NCBI RefSeq assembly: GCF_028826155.1
Contig: NZ_JAQGPN010000001.1
Span: 1,865,501 to 1,929,500 of the forward strand
Source: Mesorhizobium shangrilense
Lineage (GTDB): Bacteria; Pseudomonadota; Alphaproteobacteria; Rhizobiales; Rhizobiaceae
DNA: 64,000 nucleotides
Reading direction: 5' to 3'
Within the stretch, counting starts at the first letter, position 1. Each line of letters starts with the position of its first letter. The notes beneath the pieces were generated by a model, which saw nothing but the letters and a program-made list of their open reading frames with translations, was not told the origin of the DNA and did not search any database. Below, in pieces: positions 11,445-30,625 of this stretch. A program made the translations under genes and the position numbers.

Positions 11445-13775
11445 TCAGGTCCCGGCGGTGACGGATTTCACGAACGCGGTCAGCGCGGTCTTGTATTTCT
11501 CGAACTCCGGCGACGTCTGGCGGACCTCTTTCGTCTCGACCGTTGGTGCGGACTGTGGCGCGCGGCCGCTCATCTTGCGCTCTGCCCAGGCGATCACGTA
11601 GCCCGCGTCCTTGCCCGTCAGGAAGGGGTTGGCGCTGATCACCGACTGGCCGAGCACCTCGACGAGGGGAGCGGTGCCAGGCGCCGAGAGAATCTGGGCG
11701 GCGCCCTCCATGCCAAGGAAATGGCAGAGATAGAGCCGGCCGGCGGTGACCGCATGTCTGCGCACGCGCAGATAGGCCTCGCCTTCGCGCGCCAGGTTAC
11801 GCACCATCTCCCGCGAGATCGTGGGGTCGAAGCGCAAAGCGAGCAGGTCGGCGCGCGACATGGAGCGTGCGAGATCCGGCCGGTAGGTGACCATCATCCT
11901 GATCCAGGTCGAATCGATGAACTGGCCGAGGCCGGTGGCGCTGGACAGCGGGTTCTTGGCGGTGGCGCTGCCGCCGCTCTCGACATGGATGATGCGATCG
12001 GTCAGCTTCTCCACTGCGCCGCCGTCCGTCGAGGCGACGACCACCGACCCCAGCGGATCCATTGCGGTCTCTCCCTGGTAGAGCTCGAAGTGCAGGTGCG
12101 GGCCCGTCGAAAGCCCGGTGGTGCCGATGTAGCCGATCACGTCGCCGGCCTTCACCGCGGTTCCCACGCCCGCCGCGATGGCGAAGCGCGACATGTGCGC
12201 GTAGCGGGTCTCGCGTCCGCCCGTATGTGAGATCCGCACGAGATTTCCGTACTCGCCGCCGTCGCCCTGGAAAACGATCTCGCCGTCGAAGGCGGCATGG
12301 ATCGGAGTGCCGACCGGGGCTGCCCAGTCGACGCCCTTGTGGATGCGGACGGTCTTGAGGATGGGATGCCGGCGGGGGCCGAAGGTGGATGTCATGACGC
12401 CGTTGACCGGAGTGACCATGCCGTTGGTGACGGTGAGCGAATGGACCAGGTCGTCGCCGGTCACGCAGGCGAACTCGCCGTTCGTCTGGCGATAGACGAA
12501 GCACTCCATGTTGCGCGCGCCGCCAAGCACCGCGACGTAGAGCACCCGTCCGGCGCTGCCGTCCTCGCCCCTCGCCGTGTCGGAGTAGACGAGCACGAGC
12601 TGGTCTTCGTGGGTGGCGAAGGCGTTCAGATCCTGGCCGCGGGAGAGATACATGATGGCTTCGCCGATCACCCCGGTCGGCACGTTGTTGCGCGCCGCCG
12701 TCGAGTAGATGGCGTCGAGCAACCGGTACTGGCGCTTGTGCGCGCCGACGTCAGGCTCGCCGGAATAGTTGAACAGGTCGTCGCGCACCCAGGGATCGGC
12801 GCCGATGACGAACTCGCCTTTGACGTCGCGGGCCAGCGTGCCGACGAAAGTATCGTTGGCGTAGATCGACACCTGCATGAGCGTCATGGCGGGCGTCTGG
12901 CGGGCAGCGCGCAGGCCGCGCAGAGCCACCACGAATCCGGGCTCCAGGTTCTCCCGGGAGAACAGGGATTTCAGCGCCTCGCCGGCCTTTCTGGCGTCGT
13001 CGGAGCGGAAATGGTGCTCGAGAACCACGCTGTCGAGGCTGCGCGACGACAGCACCTTCACGAAAACGTCTTCCGTCGCCTCGAACCGCTCGGTCTCCGG
13101 CGTGACGATGGCGACGCTGGTGATGTTCTCGATCTCGGTCTTCTTGAACTCGGGAAGCGCCGCTTCACCCTCGCCAACTGTCTCGCCCCAGCCGGCGGCA
13201 GCGTCGGCCGGGGCCGCTGCCGCCACCGGCGCGACCGGACCGTCGGGTGCGCTGCTCTCGGCCGGCGCAGCCGTGGGCGAGGTCATGTCGGGGAGAGCCA
13301 AGGGACCCGCCGCTGCGGCTGTCCGCTGCGCCTGGAAGAATGCAAAATCCTCCTGACTGGACGGTATCGTCGTCATGAAGCGTTCGCTGGAGCTCAGCAT
13401 GGTGTCGGAAAGGACGTCGATCTGCGGCGAGATCCCCGGCTCGAGCAGGTCGGCAGGCCGTGGCGCGGAACGCACCTTGGGCGCTGCGGCGTCACGCGAC
13501 AGGCTGATCAGCATGGGGTCGCCTGGGAGGTCGACGATCGCCGGGACGAAGACCGCTGCATCTTCCGGGATGTCCTCCAGGTCGGCCACCGGCTCCAGGT
13601 CGCCCTCATAGGTTCCGAACGACCAGCGGTCGGCGGTGACGTAAGCGGCGACAGCCAGGCCGAGGACGGCAAGCAGGCCGAACCCGGCCGCCACCATTCG
13701 CCACCTGGCTCGCCTTCTGCGGGAAGCCAGCGCCTCCTTCCTCATCCGGAAGCTGGCGTCCAGGCTGTGGGTCAT
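11445..13775 (-). CDS. Membrane-anchored M23 peptidase / lytic transglycosylase fusion
   Basis: A 776-residue bifunctional wall enzyme. One membrane helix lies near residues 27-48, followed by an Ala/Pro-rich periplasmic linker and a long middle region. Residues about 460-575 are an M23 (LytM) endopeptidase with the zinc ligands of HPILKTVRIHKGVDW and HLHF. Residues about 585-700 look like a lytic transglycosylase, with the putative catalytic Glu in HVESGG and the GLGQFIDSTW motif. The enzyme could cut both peptide cross-links and glycan strands. It lies within the T6SS locus, antisense to and converging with tssH, and is probably translated by coupling to the upstream DUF1036 gene (ATGA overlap). 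Opening the wall for T6SS assembly is inferred; an envelope-maintenance role is possible. Confidence 0.85.
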   Translation of the reverse strand: MTHSLDASFRMRKEALASRRRRARWRMVAAGFGLLAVLGLAVAAYVTADRWSFGTYEGDLEPVADLEDIPEDAAVFVPAIVDLPGDPMLISLSRDAAAPKVRSAPRPADLLEPGISPQIDVLSDTMLSSSERFMTTIPSSQEDFAFFQAQRTAAAAGPLALPDMTSPTAAPAESSAPDGPVAPVAAAAPADAAAGWGETVGEGEAALPEFKKTEIENITSVAIVTPETERFEATEDVFVKVLSSRSLDSVVLEHHFRSDDARKAGEALKSLFSRENLEPGFVVALRGLRAARQTPAMTLMQVSIYANDTFVGTLARDVKGEFVIGADPWVRDDLFNYSGEPDVGAHKRQYRLLDAIYSTAARNNVPTGVIGEAIMYLSRGQDLNAFATHEDQLVLVYSDTARGEDGSAGRVLYVAVLGGARNMECFVYRQTNGEFACVTGDDLVHSLTVTNGMVTPVNGVMTSTFGPRRHPILKTVRIHKGVDWAAPVGTPIHAAFDGEIVFQGDGGEYGNLVRISHTGGRETRYAHMSRFAIAAGVGTAVKAGDVIGYIGTTGLSTGPHLHFELYQGETAMDPLGSVVVASTDGGAVEKLTDRIIHVESGGSATAKNPLSSATGLGQFIDSTWIRMMVTYRPDLARSMSRADLLALRFDPTISREMVRNLAREGEAYLRVRRHAVTAGRLYLCHFLGMEGAAQILSAPGTAPLVEVLGQSVISANPFLTGKDAGYVIAWAERKMSGRAPQSAPTVETKEVRQTSPEFEKYKTALTAFVKSVTAGT

Positions 13776-14230
13776 GTGCCGCGCCCGGTCAGGAAGAAGG
13801 TCCAGCGAACCTGTTCCAGCGTATCCACTTCATAAAAGGCAGCCGCTATGTGGCCGCGCTGCCAGCATTCCTCGATCCCACGGATGGTGAAGCGGCGTTT
13901 CTCGACGCACATCTCGGTCGAGCCGCTGAGGATCGGCTGGCCGAAGACGTCGGTCGCATAGACGTAGATGTAGCGGTTGACGAGCTCCTCGCGGATGACG
14001 TTGACGCACTGGTTGGCGCCGATCGTCCACCACCCGTCGGTCTGGAAGGCCGCATCCACCTCCTGGCCAACGGCGAGATTGACCACGTCGAGCGTCTGGT
14101 TGCAGACGGTGAATTCGGCGTGCGCGGGGCTTGGAGAGCCGGCGACGAGGGCCAGGAATCCGACGCCGATGCCAAGCGCACGCAGCGCGAGACCCCTTCC
14201 GACCCAGCCCTCACTCAACGAATCGGCCAT
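13772..14230 (-). CDS. Secreted DUF1036 protein
   Basis: A 152-residue protein with a signal peptide (long hydrophobic stretch, then SPAHA/E near residue 38). The mature part has the DUF1036 pattern: VCNQT near the start, then DGWWTIGANQCVNV and MCVEKRRFTIRG-EECWQRG, with several cysteines suited to disulfides. The start at 14230 is chosen over 14266 because the extra 12 residues add nothing signal-like. Function is unknown for the family. It is cotranscribed with the wall hydrolase and faces the Exb group across a 249-base divergent region. Confidence 0.8.
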   Translation of the reverse strand: MADSLSEGWVGRGLALRALGIGVGFLALVAGSPSPAHAEFTVCNQTLDVVNLAVGQEVDAAFQTDGWWTIGANQCVNVIREELVNRYIYVYATDVFGQPILSGSTEMCVEKRRFTIRGIEECWQRGHIAAAFYEVDTLEQVRWTFFLTGRGT

Positions 14231-14479
14231 CGAACACCGCCCCGTTCCGGCGATCCCGTGCTGCACCGTCAGGCTGCATTATCGGGCAGCATTGGCGAAG
14301 TGCAAAGGGGGCCGCGCTTGCGGCGGCCGGCGGGGCGCGGTGATCGCCCCGTGACGCCATTCCCGACCGGAGCAGGACGCACCTTCCGAAATTCGCTGTT
14401 CCATCGCGGGCGCGACGCGCTAAGCTGCAAGGTGCCGTTCCGTCTTGTCGCAACGATCTTCGTTCGAGGAGAAGTGCCG
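14231..14479. promoter_or_regulatory. Divergent intergenic region
   Basis: 249 bases between the leftward DUF1036/M23 pair and the rightward secreted protein/Exb group. Both must be promoted from here, which would allow co-regulation. I could not pick convincing -35/-10 pairs. Open frames that cross it are shadows. Confidence 0.45.
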
Positions 14480-14905
14480 ATGGCGTGTGGAAAGACGCTT
14501 CCTGCCTATGCGGCCCTGTTCTTCACCGCCGCATCGGCCGCTGCCGGCGCGCAGCAGACCGCCTTTACCATCGAGCTCAACGACGCCCAGGACGTCAACG
14601 GCGGTTGCCGGCTCGTCTACGTGGCGATGAATTCGACCGGCAAGCCGTTGCAGAAAGCGTCCTACGACGTGTTCACCTTCGATGCGGCCGGCAAAGTCTC
14701 GCAGTCGCTGGTATTCCAGTTCGGCGCTTTCCCGGTCAACAAGACCAAGGTCGTCCAGTTCGATCTCGCCAACCGCGAGTGCTCGAAGATCTCGCGCCTG
14801 CTGATCAACGATATGACGGAATGCATGGTCGAGGGCCAGAACTCGACCTTGTGCATGGATGCGTTGAAGACGACGACGCGAACGTCGATCGCCTTCGGCC
14901 TCTAG
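14480..14905 (+). CDS. Small secreted cysteine-containing protein of the Exb group
   Basis: A 141-residue protein starting at ATG 14480, with GAGGAGAA at 14466-14473. It has a signal peptide (LPAYAALFFTAASAAAGAQ, cut near residue 23-25) and a mature domain with four or more cysteines (GGCRLVYVAMNSTGKPL, NRECSKISRLLIND, MTECMVEG, TLCMDAL). It resembles a beta-sandwich periplasmic protein but I do not recognise a named family. It begins the rightward group and is followed after 14 bases by exbB, so it is likely a periplasmic partner or sensor of that complex (inference). Confidence 0.75.
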   Translation: MACGKTLPAYAALFFTAASAAAGAQQTAFTIELNDAQDVNGGCRLVYVAMNSTGKPLQKASYDVFTFDAAGKVSQSLVFQFGAFPVNKTKVVQFDLANRECSKISRLLINDMTECMVEGQNSTLCMDALKTTTRTSIAFGL

Positions 14906-14919
14906 CGGAGGGCCAGGGG

Positions 14920-15612
14920 ATGCTCGAGGTGCTGATGGCGCAGATGCGGTCCGCCGGCGGACCGATGCTGGTCGCACTCTTCGCAGTCTCGATCGCCGCA
15001 ACGGCAGTGACCATCTTCAAGATCCTGCAGTTCAGGCGCATGGGGGTCGGCCGGTCGCGCTTCGCGAGGACCGCGGTCTCCATCTGGGCGGCCGGGGATC
15101 GGGTCCGCGCCCTCGAGACCGCGCGCTCCGAGGTTTCGCCGACCTCGGCGACGGTAATCGCCGCCATGGCCTCGCTGCTGCGCTATCCGGACGATCGCGA
15201 CCGCGCCAAGGAATTGGCGGCACAGGCAGCCCTCGACGAACTCACGTCGATGTCGCGGCATCTCCGTATCCTGGAATCTGTGGTCCAGGCTGCGCCCATG
15301 ATGGGCCTGCTCGGCACGGTCATCGGCATGATCGTGGCGTTTGGCGAACTGTCGGCGGCGGGCGGCGCCATCGACCCTGCCGCGCTCGCCACCGGGATCT
15401 GGGCTGCGCTGCTCACCACGGCGGCCGGGCTGGCTGTCGCGATCCCCTTCTACTTCGTGTCGGTCTGGTTCGATTCCCGTGTGGAGGAGGAGCGTTCCAC
15501 GATGGAGGCGGCGATCGGGGCCGTGCTTTTCAGTTCCGCAGGCGACGCCACGCACAGAAGCGAAGCGGCGGCGTGGCAACCCGACGTCGCGGCTGCGCCG
15601 GCGGGGACATGA
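14920..15612 (+). CDS. ExbB/TolQ/MotA-family proton channel
   Basis: A 230-residue integral membrane protein with three membrane segments (about 14-36, 125-145, 155-180). The MotA/TolQ/ExbB core is visible in APMMGLLGTVIGMIVAF and the ATGIWAALLTTAAGLAVAIPFY helix. Such proteins form the pentameric stator that couples the proton gradient to ExbD/TolR and a TonB/TolA arm. It starts at ATG 14920 with GCGGAGG upstream and overlaps the following exbD by ATGA. Its place inside a T6SS locus is unusual. Confidence 0.9.
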   Translation: MLEVLMAQMRSAGGPMLVALFAVSIAATAVTIFKILQFRRMGVGRSRFARTAVSIWAAGDRVRALETARSEVSPTSATVIAAMASLLRYPDDRDRAKELAAQAALDELTSMSRHLRILESVVQAAPMMGLLGTVIGMIVAFGELSAAGGAIDPAALATGIWAALLTTAAGLAVAIPFYFVSVWFDSRVEEERSTMEAAIGAVLFSSAGDATHRSEAAAWQPDVAAAPAGT

Positions 15613-16058
15613 CCGCGGCGACCCCCTCAGCGCCTCTGATCGGCTGGAGACAGCGACAGCGCCGCGTGTTCTTCGCGCTGACGCCCCTGATCGACGTGAT
15701 GTTCCTGCTGCTGATCTTCTTCATGCTGTCGTCGCAGATCTCGCCCTATTCGCTGGTGCAGGTCGGCGGTGTGGGGCAGGCGTCCGGCGCTGCCCCGGAC
15801 GAAGCCGCAAACGCAGCTGCGGCGGCTCCGCTGGCCATACGCGTTTCGCACGGATCGGTGCGGATCGGGGGCGAGGATGTCGTGCTCGCCGAACTGCAGG
15901 CGGCAGCCGAGCGCTTCGTGCTCGAGGGCGTCGCCGCGTTCGTGGTCGTGCCCAGCGCCTCCGCCAACGTGCAGGACATCGTGACGGTGCTGGAACTGCT
16001 GAAGGCAGCCGAGGCGAAGGATGTCACGCTGGTGGCCGCGGGCCGGAGCCGCCCATGA
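15609..16058 (+). CDS. ExbD/TolR-family protein 1 (conserved Asp present)
   Basis: A 149-residue ExbD/TolR: short cytoplasmic tail, one membrane helix (about 20-42, TPLIDVMFLLLIFFMLSS) with the essential protonatable Asp at residue 29, then a periplasmic domain. It overlaps exbB and the second exbD by 4 bases each. It would supply the proton-binding residue of the ExbBD motor. Confidence 0.9.
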   Translation: MTAATPSAPLIGWRQRQRRVFFALTPLIDVMFLLLIFFMLSSQISPYSLVQVGGVGQASGAAPDEAANAAAAAPLAIRVSHGSVRIGGEDVVLAELQAAAERFVLEGVAAFVVVPSASANVQDIVTVLELLKAAEAKDVTLVAAGRSRP

Positions 16059-16468
16059 GCTACATCCCGGCCAGACCCAGGAAGACGCGCCCGGACTTTT
16101 CGCTGACGGTCATCAATATCGTGTTCCTGCTGCTGCTGTTCTATCTGGCGACCGGTAGCCTCATCAAACAGAACGAGCTTGAGGCCGACATTCCCTTCAC
16201 CAGGGACCTGCCGCTGGAAAAGCTGCCACGGCCGCTGTTGCTGGCGACTGCCGACGGCCAGATCTATCTGGATGGTGCGCCGCTCTCCCTCGAAGAGGTG
16301 CCCGGCGCCGTGAAAGCTATTCCCGAAGGCATGTTTGTGAACGTCCTCGCCGAGCGGACGATGATGGCGGATGCGCTGATGGCCGTGCTGGCCCGGGCGC
16401 AAGCGAGCGGCAGGCCTGTGCGGCTGGTCACCTTGCGGGATCGGCCGGAGACGGCGTCCCGGCCATGA
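16055..16468 (+). CDS. ExbD/TolR-family protein 2 (Asp replaced by Asn)
   Basis: A 137-residue protein with the same layout as ExbD: a membrane helix at residues 15-37 (LTVINIVFLLLLFYLATG) and a periplasmic domain ending LVTLRDRPE. The position of the conserved membrane Asp is Asn21 (codon AAT). The paralogue therefore cannot take up a proton there and may form an asymmetric ExbD1-ExbD2 dimer. It overlaps its neighbours by ATGA on both sides. Confidence 0.85.
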   Translation: MSYIPARPRKTRPDFSLTVINIVFLLLLFYLATGSLIKQNELEADIPFTRDLPLEKLPRPLLLATADGQIYLDGAPLSLEEVPGAVKAIPEGMFVNVLAERTMMADALMAVLARAQASGRPVRLVTLRDRPETASRP

Positions 16469-18060
16469 ACGCGCGGTCCGATCTGCCGCTCTGGGCAGGC
16501 GCATTCGGGATCTCGATCGCCTTGCATGGGGCGATCGCCGTTGCCCTCGGATTGACGCCGCGGCTCGAAAGCCGGGAGCAGCCGGTGACATTCGTCACCG
16601 TGCAGCCGCTGCAGCAGGACGTGCCCGAAGCGGTGGGCGGCCGCGTCGTTGCTCCTGCGGCGGCCGCGTCCGTCGCTGCGGAGCCTTCGGCGATTGCAGC
16701 GTCGCAGGAGATCGAGGCGGTTCGCGATCCTGCCGACACGGTGAAGTCGTTGCGGGATTCCCTGACCGCATCGTCTGCCGCGCGCGCCGAAGCGGTGGCG
16801 GGTCTGGACGCCTCCGGGACAACCGAGATTGCCCTCCCGGCTCCTGCAGCCTCCGATCCCGCCGTGCGGATGGACGAGACGAGGCGCACCGTCGCTGCAA
16901 GCCTGCCGAACGACGGCGAGACATTGGCGCCGGCAGACGCTGACCGCATCGCAGCCGCGGCCATCATGAGGCCTGCGCCCGCAGCGGAAACGGCATCAGT
17001 GCTTGGCGAGCTCCCGAAGGCTGTCGTCACCGGCCGCATGGCCGAACCGGCGGCGATCAGCTCCAGCCCGATCGAGCCAGGTGATGTGGGCGATCTCCCT
17101 CTGGTCGTCGTACCGCTGCCGGAAGCTGGCGGAGCAAACGAGATCGCGGCTCCCGTCGCGGAAGCAACGCAGTCGCCAATTTCGCAAGACCGGACCGGCT
17201 TTGCCAAGGTTACCGCTTCCGTGACGGGTAGCCAAACGGCTGCAACCGCGTTCGAAAGTCCGAAAACCGTGTCGGAGACGGTGGAAGCCGTTGGATCTCT
17301 CACGTCGCCTGCGATCGCGCCCGCGACGCCTGATACCGACAGGCACAGGATCGAGGGGGCAGCGCCCGCGCCAAGAAACGCCGACGTGGCGCTCGTGCCT
17401 GTGCGTCCGTCCGCTCCGGTGATCGTCGTGCAGCCGCCGACCGATCCAATGGAACTGGTCATGCAGATTATCGGCGATCAGCCTGTGCAGACCTGCTTCC
17501 TGGCGCTCGCAGGCTTGGCGGGCGACGGCATCGAGGTCGACGGATATGCCGCCGCCCCGGAGACGCTGGCGAGGCTCGACCGCGAACTGACGGCCGTCTC
17601 CACGGCCGAAGTGACGGCCAGGCAGCACAGGGTGACTTCGGTCCAATGCGATGCGCTCTCCTTTGCGCGCAGCGTTTCCCGGGATCACGTCGCGCAATTG
17701 TCGATCCGCCCCGACATGGCCGCGATCGCCAGCGGCGCCGAGCTTTCGGGCGTCGTCCGCAACCTGCGCCGCAAGCGCCTTTACCTGATGGTCGTTGACG
17801 ATGAAGGGAAAGTGCAGGAAGTCGACGGCCTCTCCCTGCTCGGTCCGGCCACGATAGGTTTTCGCTCGGCGTTCACCCTGACCGGCGGCCCGGTCGCCAC
17901 CGTTCAACTGCTCGTGGCCATCGCCAGCGACGTTCCGCTGGGCAGTGTCCAGGCGCATGAGGGCGAAAACGCCGCTGCCTACTTCGCCGCACTGGAGCGC
18001 GAGATCGCTGCGGCGCGCAGTGATGTGGAGGTGGGCATCGCCGCCTTCACCATCCGGTAG
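16465..18060 (+). CDS. TonB/TolA-like trans-envelope protein with PpkA-type C-terminal domain
   Basis: A 531-residue protein: short cytoplasmic start, one membrane helix (about 8-30), a 290-residue Ala/Pro/Val/Thr-rich linker like that of TonB or TolA, then a globular domain (about 327-531). The C-terminal domain is not a canonical TonB domain. It aligns by eye with the C-terminal domain of the kinase encoded tail to tail downstream: CF near the start, IEVDGY / IEIEGF, a later QC pair, the LSGVV / VSGRL turn, LMVVDDEGK / LILVDHKGM. As the last gene of the ExbB-ExbD-ExbD group it is the likely moving arm. The stop lies 6 bases from the ppkA stop. Confidence 0.8.
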   Translation: MNARSDLPLWAGAFGISIALHGAIAVALGLTPRLESREQPVTFVTVQPLQQDVPEAVGGRVVAPAAAASVAAEPSAIAASQEIEAVRDPADTVKSLRDSLTASSAARAEAVAGLDASGTTEIALPAPAASDPAVRMDETRRTVAASLPNDGETLAPADADRIAAAAIMRPAPAAETASVLGELPKAVVTGRMAEPAAISSSPIEPGDVGDLPLVVVPLPEAGGANEIAAPVAEATQSPISQDRTGFAKVTASVTGSQTAATAFESPKTVSETVEAVGSLTSPAIAPATPDTDRHRIEGAAPAPRNADVALVPVRPSAPVIVVQPPTDPMELVMQIIGDQPVQTCFLALAGLAGDGIEVDGYAAAPETLARLDRELTAVSTAEVTARQHRVTSVQCDALSFARSVSRDHVAQLSIRPDMAAIASGAELSGVVRNLRRKRLYLMVVDDEGKVQEVDGLSLLGPATIGFRSAFTLTGGPVATVQLLVAIASDVPLGSVQAHEGENAAAYFAALEREIAAARSDVEVGIAAFTIR

Positions 18061-18066
18061 TCAAAG

Positions 18067-20382
18067 CTATCCGCCGAGGCGGAAGTATTTGGCGGTTGCG
18101 GCGGCTTCAGTGCCCGGACCTTCCATCTCCGCCAGTATCTTCGGGAACAATTCGGTCGCGGGCGTCGGCGTCGAGAACTCCGCAGCCTTGATTCCCGAGG
18201 CGCTGGATAGTGCTACGATCATCTGGGGCACGACCTTTTTCGCGGCTTGGTCGGCCGCGCTCAGTCCGATGGGAATGCTGAAAGCGGCTCCATTTCCCTC
18301 GGCCGCCAGCCGGCTGTTGAGGTTGAACGCCATGCCCTTGTGATCGACGAGGATCAAATCGGTCCTGCGGCCGTCAACGCCCGTCAGCCTGCCGCTCACC
18401 GGCGTACCGTTCGGAACGGAGGTACGGTCGAGCGTAAGGCTGGGCATCTGTTTGGACGCCGGAAGTTCGCGCAGAAACTCGGTGACCACGCACTGTGCGG
18501 GCTCTATCAACCGCACGCCCACTTCCGGCTCGATGTTGAATCTCTCCTGAAACGCGGCGAGCAGCTCCATGAAGGGCTCGACATCGGTTCCGAACCCCTC
18601 GATCTCTATCGCCTTGTCTGTGGCGGACATGGCCGTGGCGTAGAAGCATTCGCCGCCGGTGTAGCCGCGCAGCCAGGCTATCCGCTCTGCGACGCCGTCG
18701 ATGGCTTCGGCCGCCTTAGGTTTCTCGGGCGGCTGCAGCTGCGCAGTGTCAACCTCGGGCGGTGCGGCCTCCTGTTCGGGAGACGGCCCAGCAGAGGCGG
18801 GTTGTTTGTCGGCAGGCGGCGGCAAGGGGGCCTCTAGTGCTGGCGCAGGCGCGGGCGCTGCGACCGGTTCCGGCTCGGTCTGCGCATTTGGGGCGGGCGA
18901 GGCGGCCGTTTCCTGCGGTGGGGGCTCGACTTGCGGCGACGGCTGGACCGCCGGCGCGACGGCCGCCTGCTTGTCCGCATCGCTCCCGCCCGGCTGCCCC
19001 CGCTGTCCGCTTTCATGTGGAGCTGGCTTCGAGGCCGCTTCCGGCTCCTGAGCCGCAGGCGTGAGGATCGCGCCGGCGGGAGGAGGCGTGGAGGAGGCTT
19101 GCGGCGGAGCGTCCGCCGGTCCGAAGAGCCCGCCCAAATATGCGGTTCCGCCTGCCGCGATCGCGAGGAGGGCGGCGGCCGCGACGTAGCCCGGCAGCCT
19201 TCGGCCGGGACGCGAGGTCGCGCGCACCTGTTCCGCGGGTGGGACGCTTTGCTGCCCTGCGTCGAGATAGGCGGGCCGCACATGAGGCACGAAGTCGGGG
19301 TTTTCGGACGCGCCAGCATCCCGTGCGGCGCCGGTATCGCGAGCGGGCGGCGACGTCGACTCCATCCGGGCGGCATCCGTGGCTGCTTCGCCTGCCACGT
19401 TCGGCGCGCCCTCCCAGAGGGGGACGGCAACCGGGGCGGCCTGCTCGATGGTGTCCGGGGGCGGGGGAACGGCAGTCGCGGCTCCCGAGGGAGCGACGCT
19501 CGTGGTCGCCTGCTTCGCTTGGCCGGCCTGCTGCGCCATTTCTACGACTGCCGCCATGTCGGCGGGGCGCGCCTTGGGGTCGGGCTGCAGCATCGCTTCG
19601 AGGATCGGACGAATGCTGGCGTCGATCTCCGAGAGATCGGGCATCTCGCGCCGCTTTTCGACGATTTCCACCTGCGTGCCGCCCATGTTGATCGGCTCGG
19701 CCCGCAGCGCGGCCACAAGCACGAGGCCGAGGCTGTAGATGTCGGACTGTTCGGTGATCTCGCCGCCAAATAGACCGAGCTGCTCAGGCGACACGTAGTT
19801 GTACTTGCCCGCGAACTTGCCGCCGATCAGGGTCTCTCCGCCGACCGTAGCTGACCGGGCGATGCCGAAATCGATGATCTTGGCGCGCTCGACCTTGCCG
19901 CCCGGCAGGATGATGTTGTCGGGCGACAGGTCGCGGTGCACGATCCCCGCCTCGTGCGCGGCGCTCAGCCCCGACGCCAGCCGTGCGCAAAGCTTACGGA
20001 CGTTCTCCGGCGACATCGGGCCGTGCTTCATCAGGTCGACGAGCGACTCCCCGTCGACGAACTCCATCGCGAGGTAGGGGCGGCCGATGCCCGCGTCGAT
20101 GGTGAAGACGTGGTAACGGACGATGGCGTCATGGGCGAGGTGGTTGAGGACGGATGCCTCTTTCTTGAAGAGGGAGAGGATGGTGAGGTCGCGCGCCAGT
20201 TCCGGCAGGACGATCTTAATGGCGACCGGGTCGCCAGTCTGGATGTTGTGGCCGCGGTAGACTTCGCCCATTCCGCCGAAGGCGATGCGTTCGTCGAGTT
20301 CGTAGATGCCGCTGAGCTGGGTACCGACGGTGGCGTTGGCCACGGCGGGCAGCAGCTTCGTCTTCTCCTCGTCCACGCTCAT
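18067..20382 (-). CDS. ppkA: T6SS Ser/Thr protein kinase PpkA
   Basis: A 771-residue transmembrane kinase. The cytoplasmic kinase domain (about 25-290) has the Gly loop FGGMGEVYRG, VAIK with Lys56, HRD at 149-151, DFG at 172-174 and SPEQL. The lysine usual after HRDL is Ser (HRDLSPDN), a variant seen in other bacterial kinases. An Ala/Pro-rich segment leads to one membrane helix near 397-420, a second Pro-rich linker, and an extracytoplasmic domain (about 560-771) shared with the TonB-like protein. In threonine-phosphorylation systems PpkA phosphorylates Fha or a similar partner to trigger firing; no Fha gene is in the window. It overlaps pppA by ATGA and is last in the tssK operon. Confidence 0.93.
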   Translation of the reverse strand: MSVDEEKTKLLPAVANATVGTQLSGIYELDERIAFGGMGEVYRGHNIQTGDPVAIKIVLPELARDLTILSLFKKEASVLNHLAHDAIVRYHVFTIDAGIGRPYLAMEFVDGESLVDLMKHGPMSPENVRKLCARLASGLSAAHEAGIVHRDLSPDNIILPGGKVERAKIIDFGIARSATVGGETLIGGKFAGKYNYVSPEQLGLFGGEITEQSDIYSLGLVLVAALRAEPINMGGTQVEIVEKRREMPDLSEIDASIRPILEAMLQPDPKARPADMAAVVEMAQQAGQAKQATTSVAPSGAATAVPPPPDTIEQAAPVAVPLWEGAPNVAGEAATDAARMESTSPPARDTGAARDAGASENPDFVPHVRPAYLDAGQQSVPPAEQVRATSRPGRRLPGYVAAAALLAIAAGGTAYLGGLFGPADAPPQASSTPPPAGAILTPAAQEPEAASKPAPHESGQRGQPGGSDADKQAAVAPAVQPSPQVEPPPQETAASPAPNAQTEPEPVAAPAPAPALEAPLPPPADKQPASAGPSPEQEAAPPEVDTAQLQPPEKPKAAEAIDGVAERIAWLRGYTGGECFYATAMSATDKAIEIEGFGTDVEPFMELLAAFQERFNIEPEVGVRLIEPAQCVVTEFLRELPASKQMPSLTLDRTSVPNGTPVSGRLTGVDGRRTDLILVDHKGMAFNLNSRLAAEGNGAAFSIPIGLSAADQAAKKVVPQMIVALSSASGIKAAEFSTPTPATELFPKILAEMEGPGTEAAATAKYFRLGG

Positions 20383-21188
20383 GGCATGCCGCCGTTGCCG
20401 GTGGTGGAGATGCCTGCTCGCCGGCGATGCGGTTCGGAACCGTCGAGCATACGCACGACGACAATGGTCACGTTGTCGGTGCCGCCGCGCGCGAGCACTG
20501 TCTGGAGAAGAACCTGGCAGGCCTGCTCCGGGGCGGCCGCCGCGACCGTTTCGCGGATCTCATCGTCGGATACATGGGCGGTCAGCCCATCGGTGCCGAG
20601 CACGAAGACGTCGCCGGGGATGATCTCGCCCTGCTCGATGTCGAGGACGATGTCGTCGCTGACCCCCACGGCCCGCGTGATGACGTTGCGCCTGGGCCAG
20701 ACCCGCGCCTCGGAGGCGGTGATCACGCCCTGGTCAAGGAGTTCCTGCACCTCCGTGTGATCCCGGGAGACCTGCGAGATGACGCCGCGGCGGACCAGGT
20801 AGACGCGGCTGTCGCCGGACCACATGCAGGCAAAGCGGCCGTCGATGGCGAGCAGGGCTGCCACAGTGGAGCCGATGGTGATGCCGCGCGCCTCCGAGAT
20901 CTGCCGGATCTCGGCATGTGCACGGGCCAGTCTGTCCTCGAAGCGCGCCCTCAGGTCCGGGGCGGAGCTGGCGATGCCCATGGTGGCAAGATGATGCACG
21001 ATGCTGGCCGAAGCCACTTCGCCGGCATCATGCCCGCCCATGCCGTCCGCGACCAGCCAGAGGCCGCTTTCGGGTTCGACCAGATAGTTGTCCTCGTTGA
21101 CGCTGCGCACGCAGCCGGTATGGCTGACGCCGTAGCTTTCGAAGGGAAATGAGAGGCCGTTCATCATGGCTGCTCTCGCGTGGGTCAC
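20379..21188 (-). CDS. pppA: T6SS PP2C-type phosphatase PppA
   Basis: A 269-residue PPM/PP2C phosphatase. Metal-binding motifs are present: GCVRSVNEDN, VADGMGGHDAGE, MWSGDSRVYL and GTDGLT-HVSDDEI. PppA removes the phosphate placed by PpkA and so resets T6SS activation. A second possible start lies 21 bases inside (21167), giving a product beginning MNGLS or MMNGLS. It lies 13 bases after tagF and overlaps ppkA. Confidence 0.93.
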   Translation of the reverse strand: MTHARAAMMNGLSFPFESYGVSHTGCVRSVNEDNYLVEPESGLWLVADGMGGHDAGEVASASIVHHLATMGIASSAPDLRARFEDRLARAHAEIRQISEARGITIGSTVAALLAIDGRFACMWSGDSRVYLVRRGVISQVSRDHTEVQELLDQGVITASEARVWPRRNVITRAVGVSDDIVLDIEQGEIIPGDVFVLGTDGLTAHVSDDEIRETVAAAAPEQACQVLLQTVLARGGTDNVTIVVVRMLDGSEPHRRRAGISTTGNGGMP

Positions 21189-21201: not shown

Positions 21202-21867
21202 TCAATCTGCCACAGACTTCAGCATCAGAGTATAGAAATAAGGGTCGGGCAGTCCCGCGGCGCTGTAGACCAGTGGCCCGCTCGCTTCGCTGCCGGTCGT
21301 CCACCAGAAGCTTCTCGCCTCCGCGGTTTGCCGGTAGTCCGCCTCGACGATGCCGGTCAGCAGCGCGGCAGGGCTGGAGTGCGGGGGACCGTTCCAGAGC
21401 GTGCCGCCCTTGAACTGTTTCTCTCCTTGCCGGACGCGTTCGAGGGACGGCGCCGGGAGGTCCGCCAGCAGGGTGTCGATGGCGAGGGGACCGTCGGCGT
21501 CCAGTGTGGCGAGAAGGCGGGCTTCGATCGCCGCGTACCACTCGCTTTGGGGCGCGAAGGGTGGGGGCGGAACCCGCTCGGTTTCGGCGCAGGCATACAG
21601 CGCCATCAGCGGGAAGTAGCGTCCGACGCCGTCCACCGAGGGCATCACGACGCCCGCGCCTGTCGTGCCCAGCACCGAAGGTCCGATCCAGAAACGCCAG
21701 AGCGGGGCAACGAGATAATGCCGCTCCCAATCCCGCCCAAGCTCGGCGCGGCTGGCGGCAAGCGCCGACTGCAGCCAGGTCTCGAGCGGCGCGAGCAGGC
21801 TCGGCGCGATACCCAGCGAGATGAAGTCGCGCTTTTGCGGCAGTTTTCCAAACAGCCCGAAGCCCAT
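21202..21867 (-). CDS. tagF: T6SS accessory protein TagF (ImpM family)
   Basis: A 221-residue TagF/ImpM protein with the family opening GLFGKLPQKRDFISLG, then WLQSALAASRAELG, PLWRFWIG and GVVMPSVDGVGRYFPL. TagF is a post-translational repressor of T6SS in Pseudomonas and Agrobacterium, acting beside the PpkA/PppA switch. Its start codon directly abuts the tssM stop. In Agrobacterium tagF is fused to pppA; here they are separate neighbours. Confidence 0.9.
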   Translation of the reverse strand: MGFGLFGKLPQKRDFISLGIAPSLLAPLETWLQSALAASRAELGRDWERHYLVAPLWRFWIGPSVLGTTGAGVVMPSVDGVGRYFPLMALYACAETERVPPPPFAPQSEWYAAIEARLLATLDADGPLAIDTLLADLPAPSLERVRQGEKQFKGGTLWNGPPHSSPAALLTGIVEADYRQTAEARSFWWTTGSEASGPLVYSAAGLPDPYFYTLMLKSVAD

Positions 21868-28601: not shown

Positions 28602-30050
28602 CTAGAACACGCCGCCAATGCCGATGCCGCCGCTGATATCAGGAGGCGGGGCAGCCGGGCGCGTCCCGCTGTTGCTGCGCCGTGTCGAGCGCTGCTTGGT
28701 GGGCTTGCCGTTCGTGGCCCTGCGACCGCTGTCCGTCGATGCGCTGGCTTCGCGCACCTTCTTGACCGCCACCGGCTGCTTGCAGATGCGGCCTGATCTG
28801 AGGAACAGGTCGCCGAGCAGTTCGACGGTCGGTTCGGTCGCGCCGGCGGCCTGCTTTGTGTTGCGATAGTAGTCCGCAAGGGCGCGTGTAGATCCCTTGC
28901 CCCAGTCGCCGTCGACTTCCATGCGATAGCAGCCGAGGCGGCGCAGTTCCGTCTGCACGCTGCGCGCCAGCTCGGTCGCCTTCGCCTCCGAATCCTCGCC
29001 GGTGGAGGTGCCGACGATGAGCGTCTCGAGGCCCGAGACCACGCTGTCGCGCGCGCCCTCCATCCTGGACAGGGTCGCAACCTGCGTGCCGGCGGGCGGC
29101 GCGGATGCGGCGGCCGGTCCTTCGACAGAGCGCAGCGTCTGACCCACGATCAGCACTGCGGTCTGCAGGTCATTGGAAGCAAGTTCGACCTGGAGCTTCT
29201 CCTTCGCCGCAGGGTCGGCGAGGATGCGTGACAGGCTGGCGCTGAGTTGGGTCGGGTCGAGGACCTGCTGCTCGGTGAAATAGAATTGCTCGCGAAGGTT
29301 CGACTGGTCCCAGGGAACCTGGCGGCCGACCGTCAGGGCCTCGGTCTCGTTGCGGACACGGATCATCATGTCGGAAATGCTGAGGCCCGGTATCTCGACA
29401 TTTTTCAGGAGGGCAGTCGTGAAGGGGCTGTTCTGGCCCGCGCCGTCCACCGTCACATTGCCGGGCTGGGTGGCGAACGCCACGAAAGTGTTCTCGCCGA
29501 CCTCGACCTGGGCCAGACCGTCGCTGCCCGCTCCCTGGCCCATCGGGTTGTTGCGGCATGCGTCGAGGAAGATGAAGGTCTGGCGGTCACGGCTGGCGAA
29601 ACGCGCGATCACCTCATTCAGCCTGATCGCCCGCGCGGTCAGTTTCTCGACGTTGTCGGGGTCGAGCGTGTCGATCGGCAATAGATAGTTCTCGCCCTGG
29701 ATCTGGATGCCGTGGCCGGCATAGAAGATCAGCACCGACGTTGCGGTCGGCAGCTTTCTTTCCGCGTCGCCGAGCAGCTTCTTGAAGCCGTCCGAGGTCA
29801 GGTCGCTTGCGGACAGCACCTCGAAGTTCAATCTCTTCAGGCTTTCGGAGAGCCGCTGCGCATCGTTCCCGGCATTGGGAAGCCGGTCCAGGCGGGCGCT
29901 TTGGTAGTTCGAGTTGCCGATGACGATGGCCAGGCGATTGCGCGGCTGCGCACCGGCCTGCTCTTCGACCGCGGCGCGTGTTGCGACTGCGGTGAGCAGC
30001 ACGAAAAACAGGACTGCCGGGATGGTGAAGAAAGCTCTGTAGAACGCCAT
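28602..30050 (-). CDS. Secreted caspase-like (C14) protease
   Basis: A 482-residue protein from ATG 30050; a longer frame to 30293 lacks a signal peptide. Residues 1-26 are a signal peptide (TRA/A). Residues about 38-260 form a caspase p20-like domain with RLAIVIGNSNYQ, catalytic His113 in FYAGHGI and Cys165 in FLDACRNNP, both intact. A later segment near 385-430 (VQTELRRLGCYRMEVDGDWG) resembles a peptidoglycan-binding helical motif, and the C terminus is basic and Pro/Ser rich. Export to the periplasm is expected. It lies directly upstream of tssK on the same strand, so a link to T6SS is possible but unproven. Confidence 0.85.
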   Translation of the reverse strand: MAFYRAFFTIPAVLFFVLLTAVATRAAVEEQAGAQPRNRLAIVIGNSNYQSARLDRLPNAGNDAQRLSESLKRLNFEVLSASDLTSDGFKKLLGDAERKLPTATSVLIFYAGHGIQIQGENYLLPIDTLDPDNVEKLTARAIRLNEVIARFASRDRQTFIFLDACRNNPMGQGAGSDGLAQVEVGENTFVAFATQPGNVTVDGAGQNSPFTTALLKNVEIPGLSISDMMIRVRNETEALTVGRQVPWDQSNLREQFYFTEQQVLDPTQLSASLSRILADPAAKEKLQVELASNDLQTAVLIVGQTLRSVEGPAAASAPPAGTQVATLSRMEGARDSVVSGLETLIVGTSTGEDSEAKATELARSVQTELRRLGCYRMEVDGDWGKGSTRALADYYRNTKQAAGATEPTVELLGDLFLRSGRICKQPVAVKKVREASASTDSGRRATNGKPTKQRSTRRSNSGTRPAAPPPDISGGIGIGGVF

Positions 30051-30625
30051 GTCAGACTGCCCGTTCCTGTCTCGCGAACAGCAGCGGGTCGCCGATGCAT
30101 TCCTCGATCTGACGGGATGATCCGCCGGCGCCGCCAAAGACCAGCAAGTTTTTACACCAACAACCGCTTCAAAGATAGGGCGACGCCATCCGGTGACGTC
30201 TTGCGGCGATTGGAAACGGCAAGCACGTTCAGGTTGATGTGAGCATCTAGTCTGCACGCGTCCAAGCAAAAGGACGCGCATCGTGCTTTTCATGCAACAT
30301 GCCCAGCGGGAGCCATCCTGTTCGGAATCCTGGCGTTGTTGCGTCTATTAACAGATCAGCAAATATGTTCCATTTCAAATGCTTGGAAGGAAATATTAAG
30401 GACCGGCGGATTCCAGAAAATGGTTCGCGCTGCTGCGTTTTCGATCAGTTCAGACGCTCTACCCGACAGACGCATGACTGCGGCTAACTATGTCGCGCAG
30501 CAAACGGTGATGTTATGTTCGAAGCTCGGTTGGCATGAATCAGCCCCGATCTCGCGGAGAGGGCCGCGGTTGAGCTGCCAGACGCCGCCGTGCGTTCCGA
30601 TGCGGCGAGATCGGAAGGGGACACC
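30051..30625. other. Divergent non-coding region
   Basis: 575 bases between the leftward caspase-like gene and the rightward autotransporter, AT-richer than its surroundings. It has room for two promoters and leader sequence. A hairpin with 7-bp arms (CGCGTCC at 30257-30263, complement at 30272-30278) is followed a little downstream by TTTT, a weak terminator-like element. An open frame beginning at 30336 runs into the autotransporter in another phase and is rejected. Confidence 0.45.

Follow-up and report, generated by a model that had tools for sequence, protein, structure and literature searches.

PpkA, the Ser/Thr kinase of type VI secretion systems (T6SS), is activated by dimerisation and autophosphorylation (PMC10482370; this and the other papers cited are drawn on here in excerpt). 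In other species its periplasmic domain receives input from RtkS (Serratia marcescens), TssW (Acidovorax citrulli) and probably TagR, which belongs to TagQRST in Pseudomonas aeruginosa (PMC6082577, PMC12607579); a review ascribes the Agrobacterium input to an unknown protein (PMC10482370). Here we describe a concrete candidate for an input to PpkA outside these few studied species, the module of a TonB/TolA-like protein (T) that is encoded beside PpkA in a 64,000-nucleotide stretch of the Mesorhizobium shangrilense genome (genome G000, C1:1865501-1929500; hereafter the window). The last approximately 205 residues of T and of PpkA constitute one homologous domain.

Like T, TagR, RtkS and TssW may each act on PpkA through its periplasmic domain, and RtkS and TssW are encoded near ppkA, as T is (PMC6082577, PMC12607579, PMC10482370). 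In contrast to T, none of the three is associated with a Ton/Tol-type motor in the excerpted sources, TagTS being ABC-transporter-like, and none is described there as having a domain in common with PpkA. The alphaproteobacterial T6SS of Agrobacterium tumefaciens comprises PpkA, TagF-PppA and Fha, together with a TssL whose end binds peptidoglycan (PMC3953482). The window resembles it in encoding PpkA, PppA, TagF and a TssL with an OmpA domain, and an FHA-domain gene lies approximately 2.7 kb to its left. TonB is not mentioned in the main text of the A. tumefaciens study of PpkA, TssL and Fha (PMC3953482).

With TolQRA and ExbBD-TonB, the T module has in common its ExbB/TolQ and ExbD/TolR relatives, and T itself has the Ser-x3-His membrane helix and the long Ala/Pro-rich linker. 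It differs from these systems in that T is tipped with the PpkA sensor domain instead of TonB_C, in that it has two unlike ExbD proteins, one of them without the proton-carrying Asp, and in that it lies in T6SS clusters, except where it is unlinked or cut off by a contig end. Among the titles and abstract openings listed on PpkA or T6SS with TonB or ExbB/ExbD, on PpkA in rhizobia, on periplasmic inputs of PpkA and on ExbD pairs, none describes such a module, which does not prove its absence, and we know of no earlier case of a Ton/Tol-type motor acting on a kinase. In Azospirillum, proteome data show a rise on fructose both of T6SS proteins and of a TonB/ExbB/ExbD set, with locus tags distant from one another (PMC11837500).

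The shared C-terminal domain

T is composed of an N-terminal membrane helix (SIALH), an Ala/Pro-rich linker of approximately 290 residues and the C-terminal shared domain. In PpkA, the same domain follows a kinase domain, a weakly hydrophobic membrane helix and a linker; the helix falls under a simple cut-off in the window protein and is called in its relatives. The kinase domain, membrane helix and C-terminal domain, together with a PppA neighbour in a T6SS cluster, mark the protein as a T6SS PpkA. From the helix and the cysteine pair described below, we infer that the shared domain of PpkA is probably extracytoplasmic.

BLASTP of whole T against whole PpkA gives an E-value of 7e-5 over 107 columns with 24% identity, and Smith-Waterman alignment of the two C-termini scores 71, compared with 33.5 +/- 5.4 for shuffled sequences (none of 2000 shuffles scored as high). 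This pairwise evidence for homology is modest, yet real. The profile evidence we regard as decisive: profiles built from 9 T and 18 PpkA domains, each set aligned separately, match with E 1.5e-32 across 206-207 columns. Controls run in the same program gave 0.094 and 0.34 for the small secreted protein encoded upstream (against the T and PpkA profiles, respectively), 0.21 for ExbD, 0.17 for the kinase domain and 0.72 for a reversed PpkA profile; the best control of all, at 0.077, was the best among 30 column-shuffled profiles. The window PpkA domain alone also retrieves T proteins of other genomes (G067, E 1.6e-11; G037, E 1.3e-10). A sequence-only reading of this DNA had proposed that T and PpkA have one extracytoplasmic domain in common and had named profile-profile scoring beforehand as a possible refutation. 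The profile-profile match supports the proposal far above background, and the residue pairs that it had aligned by eye (CF/CF, IEVDGY/IEIEGF, QC/QC, LSGVV/VSGRL and VVDDEGK/LVDHKGM) do align.

The domain has no credible match in Pfam, NCBIfam or PDB sequences; the weak matches are scattered, the best being 0.029. DUF4384 (PF14326), suspected for the second half of the domain, has no match within the window, its sole match in the window genome reaching 12.2 bits (cut-off 27) on another contig. Apart from T and PpkA, the domain also forms the C-terminus of one open frame of 1594 residues that matches AsmA (L047 9603-14387, genome G049). Matches in L054 (G085) and L055 (G013) were discarded as chance or profile drift, and a tblastn match in Borkfalkia (L094; E 4e-5), where no window gene was matched, was judged to be chance.

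Cysteine pair and predicted fold

Two cysteines occupy the same columns in all 68 domains compared (48 of 48 PpkA, 19 of 19 T and the one AsmA-type protein), with a spacing of 50-57 residues that is 52 in 60 of them. The PpkA and T domains contain exactly these two cysteines, the AsmA-type domain three. The PpkA label denotes a kinase match in the same frame; in L035, L043, L090 and L101 the frame is cut by a contig end and the protein was assigned to PpkA by hand. The count excludes L087, L088 and L091, which come from the same genomes as L034, L035 and L039, the chance match in L054, the domain piece of a broken PpkA in L123, and the PpkA domains of L131-L145.

AlphaFold2 models were computed from separate alignments of 9 rows for the PpkA domain and 8 rows for the T domain, and have predicted local distance difference test scores (pLDDT) of 90.0 and 88.3, respectively. 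Compared via the sequence alignment, the two models are in the same secondary-structure state at 184 of 205 positions, with 2 helix/strand clashes, and circular shifts give at most 99 matching positions. The predicted order of secondary structure is thus the same in both domains, in line with the sequence-only reading, for which unrelated predicted folds would have been a refutation, and the similar helical tail that it had described appears in the models as a helix (183-194 in PpkA, 178-192 in T) that precedes the last strand. In both models, the first cysteine precedes strand 1 and the second sits inside a helix, an arrangement that a disulfide within the domain would fit. Such a bond, which the earlier reading had surmised from the paired cysteines, is probable.

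Foldseek searches against the PDB returned 1761 and 1711 rows for the PpkA and T domain models, and the best 50 of each were considered. For the PpkA domain, none of these reaches E <= 0.001; the best (1.8e-3) is immunoglobulin (Ig)-like, and small-ribosomal-subunit chains, which we take to be the KH protein uS3, are also among them. For the T domain, the best 50 include one match at 5.3e-4 (4kh9, a DUF4785 protein, template modelling score 0.39), partial Ig-like matches and, at rank 24, OsmY. A BON-like half joined to an Ig-like half is a lead from these models, not a result.

A probable TonB/TolA-type motor with two unlike ExbD proteins

The gene order of the module is sec-ExbB-ExbD1-ExbD2-T, where sec, its first gene, encodes a small secreted protein. 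Relatives of sec, which has no Pfam match, are present at 17 of the 19 T loci and also at L044 and L101, two loci that yielded no T. ExbB adjoins T in 16 of 19 genomes; it lies beyond the contig end in L053 and, in G113, on a contig other than that of T. Both ExbD1 and ExbD2 are present in all 19 T genomes (in G113, again on a contig other than that of T).

The Ser and His of the TonB/TolA membrane signature are spaced as Ser-x3-His. T has this signature in its single N-terminal helix: the His is present in 18 of 18 readable T proteins and the residue four positions earlier is Ser in 15 and Ala in 3, in a count for which the helix finder favoured windows with His and from which L052 is absent, as its contig lacks the N-terminus. 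An SHLS signature is common to TonB and TolA (PMC10907165). Linker lengths range between 184 and 402 residues among 17 of the 18 T proteins, L039 being left out because its start is mis-set. The description of T as a force-transmitting type of arm, made earlier from the sequence, is accordingly supported by its SxxxH membrane signature and its ExbB/ExbD partners.

In an alignment of the 38 ExbD proteins with the TolR-like protein of the window genome, all 19 ExbD1 and the TolR-like protein keep the membrane Asp, and all 19 ExbD2 have Asn in its place; the labels ExbD1 and ExbD2 were assigned by whole-protein similarity to the two window proteins. The two adjacent paralogues (15609-16468) have the appearance of a half-dead proton stator. 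A mixed ExbD1/ExbD2 pair would hold a single proton carrier, because Ton/Tol motors contain two ExbD/TolR surrounded by five ExbB/TolQ (PMC12215075). Several rotary models have been proposed for such motors (PMC12215075), and the invariant Asp/Asn pair lends itself naturally to testing whether a motor needs both proton-carrying Asp residues or just one.

A TonB-type anchor and ExbB/ExbD partners are also what an ordinary nutrient-uptake TonB, lying by chance in a T6SS cluster, would have. The window genome encodes three plug-domain receptors, and its only ExbD-family proteins above cut-off are the TolR-like protein, ExbD1 and ExbD2. However, T has no Pfam match, TonB_C (PF03544) included, and separate TonB_C proteins are encoded at C1:2819796-2819975, within 4 kb of a receptor gene, and near the TolR-like gene. 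Among 10 T-bearing genomes tested, receptors are present in 9 and TonB_C proteins likewise in 9; G037, which is 99% complete, has T, ExbB, ExbD1 and ExbD2 with no match to a receptor plug or TonB_C. The receptor and TonB_C evidence led us to reject this identity for T, which the position of T beside PpkA in most genomes (see below) likewise renders highly improbable.

Distribution and evolution of T

T was found in 19 genomes and lies beside PpkA in 16 of them, as had been expected from the sequence-only reading, which predicted co-occurrence in related T6SS loci. In 12 genomes the genes are tail to tail (G000, G001, G037, G067, G082, G088, G263, G730, and those of L086, L089, L090 and L092), with a spacing between a 4-base overlap and 237 bases. 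In the other four (G325, G374, G426 and G449), PppA, PpkA, ExbD2 and T follow one another in the same direction, with ExbB on the opposite strand. The existence of two gene orders means that the association of T with PpkA exceeds one frozen arrangement. In G449, PpkA (L123 7310-9300) is split into two overlapping frames. The genes are unlinked in G023, where T occupies a locus apart from PpkA, and lie on separate contigs in G113 (T and the PpkA domain); G146 (83% complete, 3.1 kb contig) has T with no PpkA detected.

Named relatives with T belong to Mesorhizobium, Chelativorans, Pseudaminobacter and a Rhizobiaceae metagenome-assembled genome (MAG); a contig of a Pseudorhodobacter MAG has PpkA alone. 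A class-wide set of 385 genomes gave two matches at E <= 1e-5, the window genome and G730, both with T and PpkA, and G730 has only the class in common with the window genome.

In the tree of the domain, 15 T domains form one clade (100/98), while the 4 T domains of one genus cluster with their own PpkA (98/92). Two independent domain captures by T, at which this topology hints, were not retained, as a single T clade is not rejected (p-AU 0.421). The same tree bears on a neutral explanation, in which recombination gave T the domain of the neighbouring PpkA and nothing in particular depends on the pairing. Adjacency would ease such an event, and the grouping of one genus' T with its own PpkA would fit a second capture or conversion. 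Against this, 15 T domains form one clade with an invariant cysteine pair, a single origin of all 19 is not rejected, and the domain has been kept together with the ExbD1/ExbD2 pair across families and into another order. We therefore consider neutral capture improbable.

Relative to the kinase domain, the PpkA domain diverges faster where T is absent: the ratio of the two has a median of 3.83 in 45 T-less pairs and 2.99 in 21 T-bearing pairs, the pairs not being independent. We count this difference in favour of an action of T on PpkA.

Possible action of T on PpkA

PpkA takes periplasmic-domain input from RtkS, TssW and probably TagR elsewhere. The simplest reading of a motor arm tipped with the same domain as the kinase is that it provides another kind of PpkA input. 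T would transduce energy as the arm of a TonB/TolA-type motor (ExbB, ExbD1 and ExbD2) that is dedicated to the T6SS, its tip presumably duplicating the periplasmic PpkA sensor domain. In the mechanism that we regard as likeliest, the motor, powered by the proton gradient, would move or load T, whose tip would contact the sensor domain by homotypic pairing or through a partner bound by both. This contact would decide the dimerisation of PpkA and the phosphorylation of its target (Fha/TssL), and PpkA would thereby sense how energised or how intact the envelope is. We infer the coupling to the proton gradient, the domain-domain contact and the effect on the kinase. That the tip of T meets the sensor domain in either way and sets the PpkA switch is a tentative reading, to which we assign a likelihood slightly short of even. 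The fuller version would amount to a novel type of signalling machine. In it, a stator powered by protons, in which a functional ExbD is combined with a proton-dead one, would drive an arm tipped with a duplicate kinase sensor domain, so that envelope energy or mechanical wholeness sets the Ser/Thr kinase and T6SS firing; as a whole, this version seems rather unlikely. The data suggest, but do not prove, that a motor helps to set the T6SS switch. The common ligand or direct pairing that the sequence-only reading had put forward, as a way to switch T6SS on, is likewise conjectural, and the effect on the kinase could go in either direction.

Several observations weigh against this proposal. The strict TonB D-box pattern, which binds ExbD, is found in 1 of 18 T proteins, with looser alternating stretches visible by eye, and ExbB was not found next to T in L095. 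The motor might also serve an ordinary TonB, because the window genome has no further ExbD-family gene above cut-off. The presence of the shared domain on an AsmA-type protein means that it may be a general periplasmic binder. At E <= 0.001, the domain occurs in 42 of 397 genomes of the order; on reading all 42 genomes (in G113 and G299, a contig end cuts off the kinase), it was found on PpkA in 41 and accompanied by T in 9. A search of relatives matched 21 of 151 genomes, of which G013 and G085 were dropped as chance and G049 is AsmA-type; 17 have the PpkA domain, and the 9 with T are 8 of these 17 plus G146. A PpkA clade (L036, L037, L038, L040 and L096) that has the domain nests among T-bearing loci, and the stretches read around it contain neither T nor ExbB, ExbD1 or ExbD2, which argues against a simple obligate pair; this nesting points to a loss of T with retention of the PpkA domain.

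PpkA with the domain is thus common without T and does not need it. Given so lopsided a dependence, T is an add-on to the T6SS kinase pathway, and T rather than PpkA seems to be the dependent partner, relying on PpkA or on what surrounds it.

The frequency of T-less PpkA also bears on an alternative in which T and PpkA make no contact and their domains both bind one T6SS component in the periplasm or outer membrane. T would exert force on this component, for instance to position the membrane complex or to recycle it, and PpkA would sense the component. The putative ligand could be TssM, the small secreted protein, peptidoglycan or a lipid. The PpkA domain must do more than bind T, because PpkA occurs without T in many genomes, and the occurrence of the domain on the AsmA-type protein is in keeping with a common ligand. 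The TssJ family has no match in the window genome at E <= 1, so another outer-membrane link may be needed, and a small four-cysteine secreted protein accompanies the module. We give this alternative appreciable weight and hold it to be doubtful overall; as between direct pairing and a common ligand, the question is close to even.

Gene neighbourhood

The T6SS cluster in the window is bounded by a TssA-like gene (890-2248) on one side and a caspase-like gene (28602-30293) on the other. The sequence-only reading had placed T and PpkA correctly in all respects, namely their coordinates, their tail-to-tail arrangement and the 6-base gap between them.

Table 1 Features of the T module and its surroundings, in window positions
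Feature	Position	Strand	Properties
M23 peptidase of the T6SS cluster	11445..13775	-	Pfam Peptidase_M23 E 5.1e-32
DUF1036 protein	13772..14266	-	Pfam DUF1036 E 1.8e-32
Small secreted protein (sec)	14480..14905	+	141 aa; signal-peptide-like start (by eye); four conserved cysteines
ExbB/TolQ-type proton-channel protein	14920..15612	+	230 aa; Pfam MotA_ExbB E 3e-29
ExbD1	15609..16058	+	Pfam ExbD E 2.7e-13; membrane Asp present (LIDVMF)
ExbD2	16055..16468	+	Pfam ExbD E 9.7e-9; Asn replaces membrane Asp (INIVFL)
TonB/TolA-like arm T	16465..18060	+	531 aa
Shared domain of T	17440..18057	+	206 aa; domain Cys 19, Cys 70
PpkA-type Ser/Thr kinase	18067..20382	-	771 aa; Pfam Pkinase E 8.2e-40
Shared domain of PpkA	18070..18705	-	212 aa; domain Cys 20, Cys 72
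PppA-type PP2C phosphatase	20379..21188	-	NCBIfam Stp1_PP2C_phos E 1.5e-58, under the model's curated cut-off
TagF	21202..21867	-	Pfam TagF_N E 6.5e-37

The M23 peptidase and DUF1036 genes (11445-14266) lie near PpkA in many clusters, T-bearing and T-less alike, and the DUF1036 gene often adjoins the M23 gene in both kinds. The caspase-like protein at the cluster end has a weak peptidoglycan-binding match, and matches to it are present in many clusters.

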